Assembly: GCA_018830645.1 (NCBI GenBank)
Contig: JAHJSA010000013.1
Location: forward strand, 1 to 64,000
Reading direction: 5' to 3'
Origin: Actinomycetota bacterium
GTDB taxonomy: Bacteria; Actinomycetota; Thermoleophilia; RBG-16-64-13
Length of the DNA: 64,000 nucleotides
Shown: positions 8,210-44,943 of the stretch, piece by piece
How positions within the stretch are numbered: position 1 is the stretch's first letter
Layout of the letters: the number at the start of each line of letters is the position of its first letter
Translations under genes and position numbers: made by a program
The notes under the pieces: generated by a model
Told to the model about the DNA's origin: nothing
The model's input: only the letters and a program-made list of their open reading frames with translations
The model's database searches: none

Positions 8210-8518
8210 TCAGCCTTTTGGCGTCGTCTGCCCCTCGAGCCACTCCCCGAACTCCTCCATGTCGGGGATGCGGTCGAAGATGATCGATCCGTCCATCATC
8301 ACTCCGGGAACGGGGATCTGGCGCCCTGCCGCCTGCCGCAGTTCTTGCAGGCGCTTCACGCCCTCTCGAGTGGACGCGTCAACCACCGAGAAGGTGAAGA
8401 GGCCCGGGCTCTCCTCCTGCAGGTCTTCCATCGCGCTCACGGCGAGGTTGCAGAGTACTCACGAGGGACCCTTGGAGATCAGGTCGATGTGCGGGTGTTC
8501 TGGGCGAGCCGAGTCCAT
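8210..8518 (-). CDS. Thioredoxin-like selenoprotein with UxxC motif (UGA read as Sec)
   Basis: ATG 8518 opens a frame of 19 codons, meets UGA at 8461-8459 and continues without another stop to 8210. Read through as selenocysteine it gives 102 aa with LISKGPSUVLC at the position of the thioredoxin/glutaredoxin CxxC site, that is U20-x-x-C23. The rest fits a short thioredoxin-like fold, including the cis-Pro segment IPVPGVMMDGSII. Without read-through, the N-terminal beta strand and active site would be lost. A possible hairpin follows the UGA. It is the third UGA-interrupted gene in a row, after the ArsR and DUF5714-AhpD genes. A thiol/selenol reductase role in the cytoplasm is inferred. selA, selB, selC and selD are not in this window. 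Confidence 0.75.
8414..8455 (-). promoter_or_regulatory. Candidate SECIS hairpin in the thioredoxin-like gene
   Basis: Starting 3 nt after the UGA, CUCUGCA (8455-8449) can pair with UGCA-G-GAG (8421-8414) around one bulged G. Between them a smaller CC-UCG / CGA-U-GG stem can form. Position just 3' of the UGA is where bacterial SECIS elements lie. The pairing was found by eye and is less compact than in the two neighbouring genes. Confidence 0.4.
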
Positions 8519-8679
8519 GGATCCCCTTTCGTGTTCGTGGGCGGCCGTCACGGGCCGCTCTTCTACTTTCACGTGGAACCGGATGCGGGTTGAGGCGGGC
8601 TGCCCGCGGCGCCTGCAGCTACAGCGGTGTCCGTGGCTGACTGCGACGCCGAACCGGCGTCGTCGGGTCCTCAGCCGGT

Positions 8680-9903
8680 TCAGCCGCCGCCCGCCTGCTC
8701 CACCACCTCCGCCGCCGCGAACGCCGGCGCGCCTCCGCTGTTGACTGCCGCGCACGGGCCGGGTTCCCCGGCCGCCGCGGATGGCCTCGTCGAGGTGGTC
8801 GCTTCGGGCGTGGTGAGCTTCGCGGCCTCCTGCGAGAGCATCACCTGCATGCGCGTGGCTCCTACGGTCATCGCGGCGTGGAGCACCTCGTCGACCTCCT
8901 CGTCCGTCACCCCGAGCCGCCTCCCGACCGAGAGGCAGTACTGGGTTCAGGGGGCGCAGCCGGAGGCCAGTGACGCCCCCAAAGCCACCAGGATCTTCGT
9001 CTTCTGATCGAGGACACCCTCGGCGTAGGCGAGTTCGAAGAACTCGTCGTAGCGCGCTTTGGCGGCGGGTCCTGTGCCGCTCGTGGCGCCGGGGGCCGAT
9101 TCCGCGCCAACCGCGAACGTGGCCGATCCCTGGTCGGTCATGTCGGTCTCCTCGTGGTCGGGATGCCAGGCGCACCCCGCGCCTCGGCAGCCGTGGGGGT
9201 GGCGTTCTGTGTCGGCACAGCTGACAGGCGCGGCGGCCTCGAGGGCGATCCCCAACTCTTCCTCGAGGAAGGCCGTGGCTTCGCGAAGGCCGACGCGCAC
9301 ATAGGCTTTGCAGCACCCCGGGTGAGCCTCGGCGGCCGTGGCCGCCGCGAGGCGGGAGACGAGGGTCATGGCCGCCCTGGTCTCCGGGCCCTTGCCGCAC
9401 CGGCCACCCACCAGGACGCTGTAGCAGGCGCCCAAGGCCGGCACCACCCCGCACACGCCGCTCAATCCGCAGTAGGCGCTCACCGCCTGGCGGGCCGTCC
9501 GCTCCAACACTTCCGCTCTGTGCGCGGCGGTGACTCCCGCCACACCCGCGTTCTCCAGTGCACGCATCAGGGCACCCGCCGCCACGTGCGCGTGTTCGCA
9601 CCCCAGCATCGGGAGATCGGACTGGGCGATGAGATCCTCGGCGATCGCAAACGGAGAGGGTGAGCGGGACGCGTCGAGCAGACCGGGGAGACGTTCCATG
9701 AAGCCGGCTCCGTGACAGCTCTCGCACACGTAGTGTCCGCGCGGGCAGACGACGTGCCCGCGGTGCTCTCCGCCGCAGACGGTGCACGTGAGCGTGGCGG
9801 CGGAATCCAGATACTCGAGCGTGCTCCCGCAGATGACGCAGGACTCCGTGCCCCCGGGTGCGGTGGTTCGCACCGGCGCGCCCGACGTGGATGCGTCGCT
9901 CAT
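8680..9903 (-). CDS. DUF5714-AhpD/CMD fusion selenoprotein with CxxU motif
   Basis: ATG 9903 overlaps the ArsR stop (ATGA). Residues 1-255 resemble DUF5714: a zinc-ribbon-like N-terminus (CVICG, CTVCGG, CPRGHYVCESCHG) and further Cys/His motifs (CEHAHVAAGAL, AYCGLSGVCGV, HPGCCKAY). Without an intervening stop the frame runs into an AhpD/carboxymuconolactone-decarboxylase domain (from about MTDQGSATF, codon at 9141). UGA at 8949-8947 falls exactly where the second Cys of the AhpD CxxC site belongs, giving C316-A-P-U319, and downstream sequence TQYCLSVGRRLGVTDEEVDE is typical of the family. Full read-through is 407 aa with an Ala/Gly/Pro-rich tail. An internal GAGGAG site 7 nt before the ATG at 9141 could also yield the AhpD domain alone. 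A peroxidase or disulfide-reductase role is inferred. Confidence 0.78.
8917..8938 (-). promoter_or_regulatory. Candidate SECIS hairpin in the AhpD domain
   Basis: Eight nucleotides after the UGA, CUGCCUC (8938-8932) pairs with GAGGCGG (8923-8917) in seven pairs including one G-U, closing an 8-nt loop UCGGUCGG. Compact stems a short distance 3' of the UGA are what SelB recognises in bacteria. Confidence 0.55.
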
Positions 9904-10238
9904 GACGCCCCCTCCGGCTCGACGGCCTTCTCGGCTACCCTGATGGCCTCCCGGACCACGGTGCGCTTCAGTCAGTAGTACACCTGGTTGCCTCGCCGAT
10001 CGGGCTTGGCGATGCCCGCGTCGCTCAGGATACGAAGGTGGTGGGAGACCAGCGGCTGGGGGAGGCCGGTGGCCGCCACCACGTGACTCACAGGGCGGCA
10101 TTCGTCGGTGAGGGCCAGTGCTATGCGCAATCGAGTGGGTTCGCTGAGCGCCTTGAAGAAGCGGCCGAGGCGCGCGAGGTGCGCGGCCTCCGCCGCCGCA
10201 CCTCCGCCGTCACTCCGTATGGAAGTATCAACATACAT
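9900..10238 (-). CDS. ArsR-family repressor, probably a selenoprotein
   Basis: ATG 10238 starts MYVDTSIRSDG. The winged helix-turn-helix follows: LGRFFKALSEPTRLRIALAL, the recognition helix VVAATGLPQPLVSHHLRIL and wing GNQVYY. At UGA 9974-9972 the frame would stop directly after VYY, before the final dimerisation helix found in nearly all ArsR proteins. Read-through as Sec89 adds LKRTVVREAIRVAEKA and ends in a TGA that overlaps the next ATG (ATGA), exactly as expected for an operon. The complete protein is then 112 aa. A 17-nt hairpin follows the UGA. A selenol- or thiol-based redox or metal switch controlling the downstream selenoprotein genes is inferred. Confidence 0.72.
9943..9959 (-). 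promoter_or_regulatory. Candidate SECIS hairpin in the ArsR gene
   Basis: Twelve nucleotides after the UGA, GUGGUC (9959-9954) pairs with GGCCAU (9948-9943) through six pairs, two of them G-U, around the loop CGGGA. Spacing and size fit a short bacterial SECIS with guanines in the loop. The pairing was found by eye. Confidence 0.5.
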
Positions 10239-10290: not shown

Positions 10291-10758
10291 TCAGTGGCGG
10301 GGGATCGCCGACGAAGCGTTACGCTGGTGGAAGACCCGGATGGGGCAGACGAGGCAGCGACTGAATCCACCTTCTCCGCTGCAGGGGCAAGGTTCCGACA
10401 ACTCCCAGCAGCGTGCGCCGTCGGTGTGAGCCGGGCAGGTGCCCCGCACGGCTTCGGTGCACTCCTCGATCTCCCAGCATTGGCCGGAGGCTACGCGCTC
10501 GACGGCCCGGAGCATGATCTCAAGGTCCTCTTCGGCCAGCCGGCTCTCGATCTCTTCCTTGTGCCCGAGGTAGACCGGGCATTCGATGAGGATGCAGATG
10601 GCCGGGTTGCAGGAGCAAGGAGTGCCTTCCACTTCCCAACAATCGACGCCCGTCAGGTACGCCGGACACGAGCGGCAGCCGCGATCGCTGTGACCGCCGT
10701 CCCCTACGATCTCCCAGCACAGTTCCCCCACTGCGCGTCTCCCTGTCGGTCGTTCCAT
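10291..10758 (-). CDS. Cys-rich protein with duplicated two-CW modules
   Basis: ATG 10758 gives 155 aa. The protein consists of two copies of an 8-Cys module, each starting CWEI, containing a central C..CPA segment and a second CWE (DCWEV, RCWEL), then PC-x-C and C-x2-CP(V/I). In total 16 cysteines and four CWE motifs are visible, separated by a helical linker EESRL-like stretch in the middle. The pattern resembles the two-CW putative metal-binding domain seen in some bacterial sensory proteins. It lies 52 bp upstream of the ArsR start, in the same direction as the UGA-containing genes. A metal, metalloid or Fe-S binding role is inferred. Confidence 0.7.
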   Translation of the reverse strand: MERPTGRRAVGELCWEIVGDGGHSDRGCRSCPAYLTGVDCWEVEGTPCSCNPAICILIECPVYLGHKEEIESRLAEEDLEIMLRAVERVASGQCWEIEECTEAVRGTCPAHTDGARCWELSEPCPCSGEGGFSRCLVCPIRVFHQRNASSAIPRH

Positions 10759-10943
10759 CTTCCATAGTTCCGATCCTCCGTAGCATGGACGTGGTGCGCG
10801 AGGATCGAGCTTGAACAGTATCACCCGGCCGCCGGTCCGGACAATCGCGCTTGGGCGGTACGCGATACGCGGTACGCGGTCACGCGGGGCGGCGCGGGGT
10901 CGCGACTGCGCGGCGCACAGGCATGCCGGGGCGGCGCAGTGCC

Positions 10944-11339: not shown

Positions 11340-11454
11340 CCCTCACGGGAAGCAGTGTAGGCGCGGGGTGCGTGTGGGTTTCGGCCGGGGTGCGTGCCGC
11401 GTGCCGCGGGACCTCGCACGCGGCGACGCCGTGCGCGCGTGAGCGGCCGAGGTC

Positions 11455-11460
11455 TATACT
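11455..11460 (+). promoter_or_regulatory. -10 element of a leaderless promoter for the ABC exporter
   Basis: TATACT ends 8 nt before the ATG at 11469 and no ribosome-binding site is present, consistent with transcription starting on the ATG. The divergent gene at 11327 has the same arrangement. Confidence 0.6.
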
Positions 11461-11468
11461 CGTGGCTC

Positions 11469-13256
11469 ATGAAAGAACGCCGCCGCGACCTTCCCTGGCA
11501 CGACCTGACGCGCGCTTTGGGCTTCCTCAGGCCCTACGCGGCCCCATCCCTGGCCGCCTTCGTCTCGGTGCTCCTCATGACAGTGGCCACCTTGTTCGCG
11601 CCGCAGTTCATCCGGCTGCTCATCGACCGGGGTATCACCGCGGGCAGCTGGCGCTGGATACTGTTTTCGACGGCCGGCCTGCTGGGCGTCGCCGTCGTGC
11701 GGGGCCTCTTCACGTTCCTTCATGGCTACCTGGCCGAGAAGGCCGGTCAGGGAGTGGCGTTCGACCTGCGCAACGCCATCTACGAGAAGCTCCAGAACCT
11801 GTCGTTCAGCTACCACGACCGGGCGCAGACCGGCCAGCTCATGACCCGGGTGACGTCGGACGTAGAGAACATCCGCACGTTCACGGGCCAAGGGTTCCTG
11901 GTGTTCACCTCGTCGCTGCTCACCCTCGTGGGCACGGCGGCGGTACTGCTGTGGATGCAATGGCTCCTGGCCCTCGTGGCGCTGGCGGCGATCCCGGCGA
12001 TCTTCGTCGTGCTCGGTCTGTTCGTCAGCCGGGTTCTGCCGCTGTTCCGAGACATCCAGGTGCGCTTGGCAGCTCTGAACACCGTGCTCCAGGAGAACCT
12101 GGCCGGCGTGGCCGTGGTGAAGGCCTTCGCTCGGGAGCCCTACGAGCTCGCGCGATACGAGGCGGCGAACCGCGATCTCCTGAACGAAGGTCTCAAGGTG
12201 GTGCGCGCCCTGGCTTCCACGCTGCCCTATGTGTTCGTCATCGCGAACCTCGGCTCTCTTGGCGTGGTGTGGGTGGGGGGCGACCGTGTGATCTCGGGAC
12301 ACATGTCCCTCGGCGACCTAGTGGCCTTCAACGCCTACTTGAGTTTCCTCCTCATGCCCATCTTTCAGCTGGCCTTCCTGTCGAGCACCCTTTCCCGGGC
12401 CGGCGCAAGCTCGCGCCGGGTCTTCGAGATACTCGACGCCGAGGTCGAGGTGCGCGACCGGGCGGGGGCGATCGAGTTGGGGCGCATCGAGGGTAGGGTG
12501 ACCTTCGAGGGGGTCGGATTCCGGTATGTGGGGCAGGAAGGCGCGGTGCTGCAGGACGTCTCCTTCGACGTGGAGCCGGGGGAGACGGTGGCCCTCCTGG
12601 GCACCACCGGGTCGGGCAAGTCGACCATCATCAATCTCATCCCCCGCTTCTACGACCCCACCGAGGGTGTCGTGCGGGTGGACGGTGTGGACATCCGCGA
12701 CGTCACCGTGAAGAGCCTCCGTGCCCACGTGGGCATCGTGCTGCAGGAGGCCGTGCTGTTCGGGGGCACCCTGCGCGAGAACATCGCGTACGGCCGACCC
12801 GATGCGTCCGCGGAGGAGGTCGAGGCCGCGGCCCGAACGGCTCAGGCGCACGACTTCATCAGCGACCTTCCCGACGGCTACGAGTCGGTTGTGGGCGAGC
12901 GGGGCGTGACTCTGTCGGGCGGACAGCGCCAGCGGGTGTCGATAGCGCGCACCCTCCTGGTGGACCCGCGCATCCTGCTCCTCGACGACGCCACCAGTGC
13001 CGTCGACGTGGAGACCGAGGTGCGCCTGCAACTCGCCCTGCGCGAGTTGATGAAAGGGCGCACCAGCTTCGTCATCGCGCAACGCCTTTCCACCGTGCGA
13101 CTCGCGAACCGGGTGATCCTCATCGACGAGGGCCGAGTGGTGGGGCAAGGCACCCACGACGAGCTGCTGCGCACGATCCCGCTCTACGGGGAGATCGTCG
13201 ACACGGAGCTGGTGCGGCAGGGCGAGGTCGGCATCGTGCCTGAGGAGGCCGCGTGA
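11469..13256 (+). CDS. ABC exporter half-transporter (degenerate-site subunit)
   Basis: ATG 11469 gives 595 aa. Six membrane segments (about 25-325) form an exporter-type transmembrane domain, followed by an ATPase with Walker A GTTGSGKST, signature LSGGQRQR and Walker B ILLLDDATSAVD. The catalytic Glu after Walker B is Asp and the switch His is Gln (VIAQRLSTVR), so this subunit contributes a degenerate ATP site. The next gene overlaps by GTGA and supplies a canonical site. This is the asymmetric heterodimer arrangement known from TM287/288 and BmrCD-type multidrug or lipid exporters. The substrate is unknown. Confidence 0.92.
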   Translation: MKERRRDLPWHDLTRALGFLRPYAAPSLAAFVSVLLMTVATLFAPQFIRLLIDRGITAGSWRWILFSTAGLLGVAVVRGLFTFLHGYLAEKAGQGVAFDLRNAIYEKLQNLSFSYHDRAQTGQLMTRVTSDVENIRTFTGQGFLVFTSSLLTLVGTAAVLLWMQWLLALVALAAIPAIFVVLGLFVSRVLPLFRDIQVRLAALNTVLQENLAGVAVVKAFAREPYELARYEAANRDLLNEGLKVVRALASTLPYVFVIANLGSLGVVWVGGDRVISGHMSLGDLVAFNAYLSFLLMPIFQLAFLSSTLSRAGASSRRVFEILDAEVEVRDRAGAIELGRIEGRVTFEGVGFRYVGQEGAVLQDVSFDVEPGETVALLGTTGSGKSTIINLIPRFYDPTEGVVRVDGVDIRDVTVKSLRAHVGIVLQEAVLFGGTLRENIAYGRPDASAEEVEAAARTAQAHDFISDLPDGYESVVGERGVTLSGGQRQRVSIARTLLVDPRILLLDDATSAVDVETEVRLQLALRELMKGRTSFVIAQRLSTVRLANRVILIDEGRVVGQGTHDELLRTIPLYGEIVDTELVRQGEVGIVPEEAA

Positions 13257-44838: not shown

Positions 44839-44877
44839 AAAAAGCCGCTGCCTGGAGAGCTATCTCCAGGTAGCGGC
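44839..44877 (-). terminator. Rho-independent terminator in the leader before 44771
   Basis: On the minus strand GCCGCTACCTGGAGA pairs with TCTCCAGGCAGCGGC (one mismatch) around a 4-nt loop and is followed directly by TTTTT. It terminates transcripts starting near 44943 or could act as an attenuator for the gene at 44771. Confidence 0.85.
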
Positions 44878-44943
44878 CCGACTACCTGACCTGCGACCTC
44901 CGGACAACCCAAGCGTGCCCGGACCCCATATCTGTAACGGTCA
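44839..44943 (-). ncRNA. Candidate small RNA or attenuated leader (about 105 nt)
   Basis: A strong promoter (44950-44978) and an intrinsic terminator (44839-44877) bracket about 105 nt without an evident coding frame. This is the architecture of a trans-acting small RNA or of a transcription-attenuating leader for the downstream gene. No known riboswitch or sRNA family was recognised. Confidence 0.45.

Follow-up and report, generated by a model that had tools for sequence, protein, structure and literature searches.

Operons that encode several selenoproteins and carry metal or organometal themes, such as the Tso and SAO operons, have been described (PMC13188914, a review, with its references 63 and 64; Haft and Gwadz 2023; Haft and Tolstoy 2025). 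The three-selenoprotein (Tso) operon is headed by TsoR (NF045707), an ArsR/SmtB-type regulator that is not named as a selenoprotein in its model. Further relevant families are the metal-binding double selenoprotein MbdU (NF045648) with two selenocysteine (Sec) residues per protein, the small HUIPC-motif thioredoxin-like selenoprotein (NF047660) with a UxxC motif, as well as the AhpD/CMD selenoproteins and the ArsM/AhpD selenoprotein (NF041537), which possess an AhpD domain with a CxxU motif. To our knowledge, the bacterial selenoproteins known so far are enzymes, redox partners and metal-binding or transport proteins. The consulted part of the 2026 review lists no DNA-binding regulator among the selenoproteins, and the term 'ArsR' occurs nowhere in the whole review (PMC13188914). 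Moreover, no report of a Sec-containing ArsR protein (Sec-ArsR) was found among titles and abstracts, a coverage outside which the study by Haft and Tolstoy (2025) lies, and none of the ArsR models among the NCBIfam matches is flagged as a selenoprotein.

On the minus strand of the window, by which we mean the whole stretch of 64,000 nucleotides that was analysed, the region from 10238 to 8210 contains three co-directional genes, all with in-frame UGA codons and together with four candidate Sec residues. These genes and the frame downstream of them are:

9900 to 10238, minus strand: ArsR/SmtB-family regulator; candidate Sec89 at UGA 9974-9972 (...NQVYY-U-LKR...), invariant Cys47
8671 to 9903, minus strand: DUF5714 and AhpD/CMD-domain protein; two candidate Sec residues at UGAs 8949-8947 and 8682-8680
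8210 to 8518, minus strand: thioredoxin-like protein, HUIPC-related; UxxC motif with candidate Sec20 at UGA 8461-8459 (...GPS-U-VLC)
7070 to about 8083, minus strand: DMT/EamA-like transporter frame downstream of the operon, named by eye and not by a profile search

The preliminary description had assigned one UGA to each of the three genes; all three genes were confirmed, but the second one has two UGAs. A divergent ABC exporter pair is located upstream of the operon, and no metal resistance gene adjoins the operon in this window. Directly upstream, a Cys-rich protein with repeated CWE motifs (CWEIVGDG, CWEVEG, CWEIEEC, CWELSEPC) is encoded on the minus strand (10297-10767); it has no match in Pfam or NCBIfam and is present in one related locus (L022) and absent from another (L023). 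Elsewhere in the window, an nhaA-I riboswitch (44868-44926, minus strand) exceeds the Rfam gathering score.

The regulator is recognised by the Pfam model HTH_5 (39.8 bits, above the cut-off) and by the NCBIfam model HTH_metalloreg (75.6 bits, cut-off 55), and it shares the fold and the HTH with the metal-sensing repressors SmtB, CzrA and ArsR. A Csa3 identity suggested by PADLOC matches was rejected because these reflect generic HTH similarity. TsoR, which likewise heads a selenoprotein operon, is the second-best NCBIfam match (54-68 bits) but remains below its cut-off of 115. Furthermore, the genes following the window's ArsR gene are not those of the Tso operon, as the TsoA, TsoB and TsoC models matched none of the three proteins. 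The second protein scores 116 bits with PF18978 and 49 bits with PF02627 (cut-off 23). It has two candidate Sec residues, of which the one in the CxxU motif is well supported, while MbdU has two Sec residues per protein. Its DUF5714 half matches positions 28-281 of the MbdU model (276-292 bits, cut-off 600). However, the second half of this 468-position model is unmatched, and the window's protein has an AhpD domain with CxxU and a GxGU tail. The AhpD part reaches 93-101 bits with the models of the AhpD selenoproteins, but it is fused to DUF5714 and not to an arsenite methyltransferase as in NF041537. The thioredoxin-like protein is small and of the UxxC type like NF047660 (50.7 bits, within 50-56 bits; cut-off 105), with the motif SUVLC instead of HUIPC. 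The best PDB matches of its AlphaFold2 model are mostly thioredoxins, with a TM score of about 0.55 and weak E-values. Since the scores lie below the respective cut-offs, the window's proteins are relatives rather than members of the MbdU, HUIPC and TsoR families. The operon thus has the design with several selenoprotein genes in common with the Tso and SAO operons, whereas the genes differ.

In relatives with 53-89% identity, UGA is present at the identical codon of all three genes. It is the only codon found at each Sec site, in the case of ArsR in 11 of 11 copies, and thus its occurrence at all sites is not due to chance. The UGA of the thioredoxin-like gene is kept in six sequences. A protein search revealed the complete cassette of Sec-ArsR, DUF5714 protein and thioredoxin-like protein, in the same order, in six genomes of the window's family (the window, L022/L026, L023/L027, L028, L029 and L030). 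The ArsR frame read through the UGA ends at 9900 in a TGA sharing bases with the ATG (9903) of the DUF5714-AhpD gene, and in five cassettes its end falls exactly within the overlapping start codon of the following gene. For the AhpD part and the thioredoxin-like gene, pN is lower than pS after the UGA. For the 23 ArsR codons 3' of the UGA, pN is about equal to pS, and the lack of a clear signal of purifying selection in these codons is the main weakness of the case, although only few codons are involved and a hairpin is encoded at their synonymous sites as well.

In the AhpD domain, the candidate Sec319 lies in GCAP-U-TQYC, that is, in a CxxU motif, in which CAPU is aligned to CEPC in L035; ordinary CxxC AhpD proteins have Cys in place of the UGA-encoded residue. 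This CxxU motif and the UxxC motif of the thioredoxin-like protein (U-VLC) are as given in the preliminary description. The additional UGA of the second gene (8682-8680) is located only three codons ahead of its UGA stop codon (8673-8671). The tail reads ...EQAGGG-UGA-ACC-GGC-UGA, corresponding to GGG-U-T-G-stop in the protein. The tail UGA is kept in every relative, including L030 and L031, whose DUF5714 protein is without an AhpD domain, and the tail of the distant L115 is DC-U-TP, with TAA as the stop codon. The review PMC13188914 lists selenoproteins of the 'UXX-star' type with a C-terminal Sec, and judging from the sequence, the tail UGA quite probably encodes a Sec residue of this kind.

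Hairpins follow each UGA, as the preliminary description had proposed for the three UGAs that it listed:

9943 to 9959, minus strand: SECIS-like hairpin of the ArsR UGA; 6 pairs, 5-base loop, starting 12 bases after the UGA
8917 to 8938, minus strand: SECIS-like hairpin after the AhpD UGA; apical loop GGUC
8645 to 8661, minus strand: SECIS-like hairpin after the tail UGA; GACGCC-GGUUC-GGCGUC
8428 to 8447, minus strand: hairpin after the thioredoxin-like UGA; CUCGC...GCGAUGG with a bulged U

The hairpin of the ArsR UGA shows covariation. Across the 11 Sec sequences, 97% of the base-pair cells are kept and three pairs display compensatory changes (C-G/U-A, G-C/A-U and C-G/U-A). The covariation score was reached by 0 of 500 shuffles and exceeded that of all slid versions, while only 60 of 126 cells (48%) are paired at the same spot in 21 non-Sec ArsR homologues. 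When folded as a single sequence, the ArsR region of the window gives no better result than shuffles. The AhpD hairpin has a z value of -2.6, with 6 of 200 shuffles folding equally well, and a consensus fold of -13.8 kcal/mol for five sequences. The six pairs of the tail hairpin are formed in 95% of the cells in seven closer sequences, with one compensatory pair, and the covariation is not significant (65 of 500 shuffles reach it). The hairpin of the thioredoxin-like gene is conserved, yet it lacks covariation and taken alone is no better than shuffles.

The Sec machinery, which the preliminary description had named as a check and whose absence it would have taken as a refutation, is present in the genome with tRNA-Sec, selA, selB and selD. 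The tRNA-Sec was identified with 72.6 bits (cut-off 47) and has the anticodon UCA according to ARAGORN; selA and selB are adjacent on the contig that also carries tRNA-Sec. Apart from a single in-frame UGA at the position usually taken by Cys or Sec (LSHGSGUACK), the selD gene (L018, G000:C73:21163-22089) is intact, and from its sequence, SelD of this genome is itself predicted to be a selenoprotein. Moreover, selA was found in all 10 genomes that contain Sec-ArsR. The conserved UGAs and the Sec machinery support the previously proposed selenoprotein operon with its own Sec-containing regulator.

The search for Sec-ArsR covered the phylum of the window and yielded 11 copies in 10 genomes from three families, in which the frame continues past the UGA. 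Besides the cassettes, the search with ArsR uncovered UGA-bearing genes in another family (L056, L057 and L058), in another class of the phylum (L115) and as a second copy in the genome of L030 (L079). Among 36 genomes of the class to which the L115 genome (G424) belongs, no further Sec-ArsR was found. The profile scores fall into two groups: all sequences with 136-165 bits have TGA at the site, and the next ones, with 79 bits or less, have no stop codon there. A second Cys residue, C47, is invariant in the 11 Sec-ArsR copies, and non-Sec ArsR homologues usually have Ser or Arg at the position of Sec89, which does not correspond to a generic active-site Cys of ArsR proteins. In one homologue (L055, genome G159), Cys takes the place of the UGA-encoded residue (YIYYC). 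The L055 gene adjoins a methyltransferase gene whose product is 47% identical to the one next to the Sec form in L081, and selA is absent from its genome. The Cys residue, the shared neighbour and the missing selA thus provide the classical argument of a Cys/Sec pair together with genomic context. A stop at the UGA positions in all homologues had been named in the preliminary description as a refutation; L055 and the ordinary CxxC AhpD proteins, with Cys at these positions, show that this is not the case. In a phylogenetic tree, the Sec forms and L055 are separate from 19 of 20 other ArsR proteins, with long branches. In a plasmid collection, the only relatives were a partial ArsR at 52% and DUF5714 proteins standing alone, for instance from Acetoanaerobium noterae.

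Sec-ArsR genes are placed in at least four different selenoprotein neighbourhoods. Encoded near the other copies are, among others, a TehB-like methyltransferase, DUF2284, a UROD-type methyltransferase, DsrE, small HMA-like proteins with U replacing Cys and an AhpD-like protein with CxxU. The entire 8.5 kb of L079 (genome G076) comprise a second selenoprotein cluster with Sec-ArsR (VYYU), two HMA-like proteins, one of them small (NTGNUIPV) and the other with two UGAs (GMQUTTU), a UROD-type methyltransferase and an AhpD-like protein with CQRU; the families were named by reading the sequence and not from profile searches. In L081 (5340-8100), L082 and L080, the genes after Sec-ArsR encode DsrE, a thioredoxin-like protein (GFSUR), a TehB-like methyltransferase and DUF2284. 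The DUF2284 gene contains an in-frame UGA (GATUPSGEE), past which similar sequence resumes in both L081 and L082. In L115 (1800-4330), Sec-ArsR is accompanied by a UROD-type methyltransferase and a DUF5714-AhpD protein (GCQPU).

The AlphaFold2 monomer model of ArsR has a mean pLDDT of 75, with about 90 in its core. It matches structures of SmtB and CzrA, and the SqrR and BigR structures are also among the fold matches. By counting on the alignment, Sec89 corresponds to Ser81 of CzrA and thus precedes by three residues Asp84, which together with H86 belongs to the alpha5 zinc/metal site of CzrA. In the model, Cys47 maps to the short beta1 strand and Sec89 to the end of strand beta3. As beta1 and beta3 are neighbours in winged-helix folds, Cys47 is predicted to lie beside Sec89, with which it likely forms a Cys-Sec pair. 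We know of no ArsR-family site that corresponds to a Cys47/Sec89 ligand pair. In front of the regulator gene, two candidate control elements were located:

10273 to 10245, minus strand: candidate promoter, TTGCGC-17-CATACT; transcription start near the ATG
10243 to 10218, minus strand: candidate operator, 12-2-12 imperfect dyad at -5 with 9/12 matches; covers the predicted transcription start

The TTGC of the candidate promoter is invariant in six upstream regions, and a scan for sigma-70 consensus promoters found nothing. The best 12-2-12 dyad occurs at the same place in five of six cassettes, and the candidate operator dyad is no better than shuffles. From this arrangement, autorepression by Sec-ArsR is plausible.

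If the ArsR UGA were a normal stop codon, a short regulator ending at the wing (VYY-stop) would be made and only the two enzymes would be selenoproteins. The weak selection on the 23 codons 3' of the UGA fits such an early end. However, the codon is never TAA or TAG in the 11 copies, the covarying hairpin 3' of it is absent in non-Sec homologues, the Cys homologue L055 continues past the site and, in five cassettes, the frame read through the UGA closes within the following start codon. It is also established that SmtB-type dimers use helix alpha5. A normal stop is therefore improbable. Frameshifts, sequencing errors or pseudogenes might be suspected in a draft assembly, the more so as UGA-split frames resemble decay in automatic annotation, but identical UGA codons occur in independent assemblies without any other lesion and pN is lower than pS in genes 2 and 3. 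This reading, to which we attach hardly any probability, was rejected because it is refuted by the UGA conservation. A genome-wide reassignment of UGA, for example to Trp, which we consider just as far-fetched and for which no observation speaks, was rejected as well because UGA terminates genes nearby, among them that of the ABC transporter at 11394-13256, tRNA-Sec(UCA) is present and the aligned residue is Cys and not Trp.

A more serious alternative accepts the Sec proteins and sees in them a redox module directed against peroxide, persulfide or sulfite, with a Cys47-Sec89 oxidation switch like the SqrR/BigR dithiol and a peroxidase chain of the AhpD and thioredoxin-like proteins. The CxxU of AhpD and the UxxC of the thioredoxin-like protein make a peroxidase-like pairing, and the regulator is weakly similar to BigR and has SqrR and BigR among its fold matches. 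The Cys positions are, however, unlike those known from SqrR/BigR, and the TehB-like and UROD-type methyltransferases, DUF2284 and the HMA-like neighbours elsewhere suit metal(loid)s better. The 'redox module' of the preliminary description was a reasonable guess, but the Sec-ArsR neighbourhoods point as much to the handling of metal(loid)s or methylated metals. Judged by gene content, these neighbourhoods favour metal(loid)/organometal handling over simple peroxide defence, and we regard the redox module as possible, albeit rather doubtful.

Based on the sequence evidence, we regard it as probable that the locus is an autoregulated selenoprotein operon in which a Cys-Sec ArsR senses a soft metal(loid) or an electrophile and all four UGAs are read as Sec. 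Cys47 and Sec89 would either bind an ion of a soft metal(loid) or organometal or form a selenenylsulfide, and either event would lower the DNA affinity of the repressor and release the promoter. The DUF5714-AhpD protein may capture the toxic species and reduce or transfer it via its CxxU motif and the Sec tail at its C-terminus, and the UxxC thioredoxin-like protein would be the putative electron donor. Since the repressor itself needs selenium, the full-length switch would exist only when Sec is available.

The operon appears to be a further case of the known multi-selenoprotein theme, and Sec-ArsR appears to be a variant of ArsR and a new use of selenocysteine. There is a good probability that Cys-Sec ArsR repressors constitute a family of Sec-containing transcription regulators, which control several kinds of selenoprotein operons and whose switch is gated by the selenium supply. 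As annotation pipelines would cut the regulator at the UGA, Sec switches may be overlooked elsewhere, and Sec-ArsR together with its hairpin could serve as ready markers for new selenoprotein operons. A selenolate ligand should make the binding and detection of soft metal(loid)s or electrophiles very tight and fast, and the response of a Sec switch to toxic metals or oxidants could be unusually strong. If true, Sec-ArsR would extend the 21st amino acid to the control of transcription.
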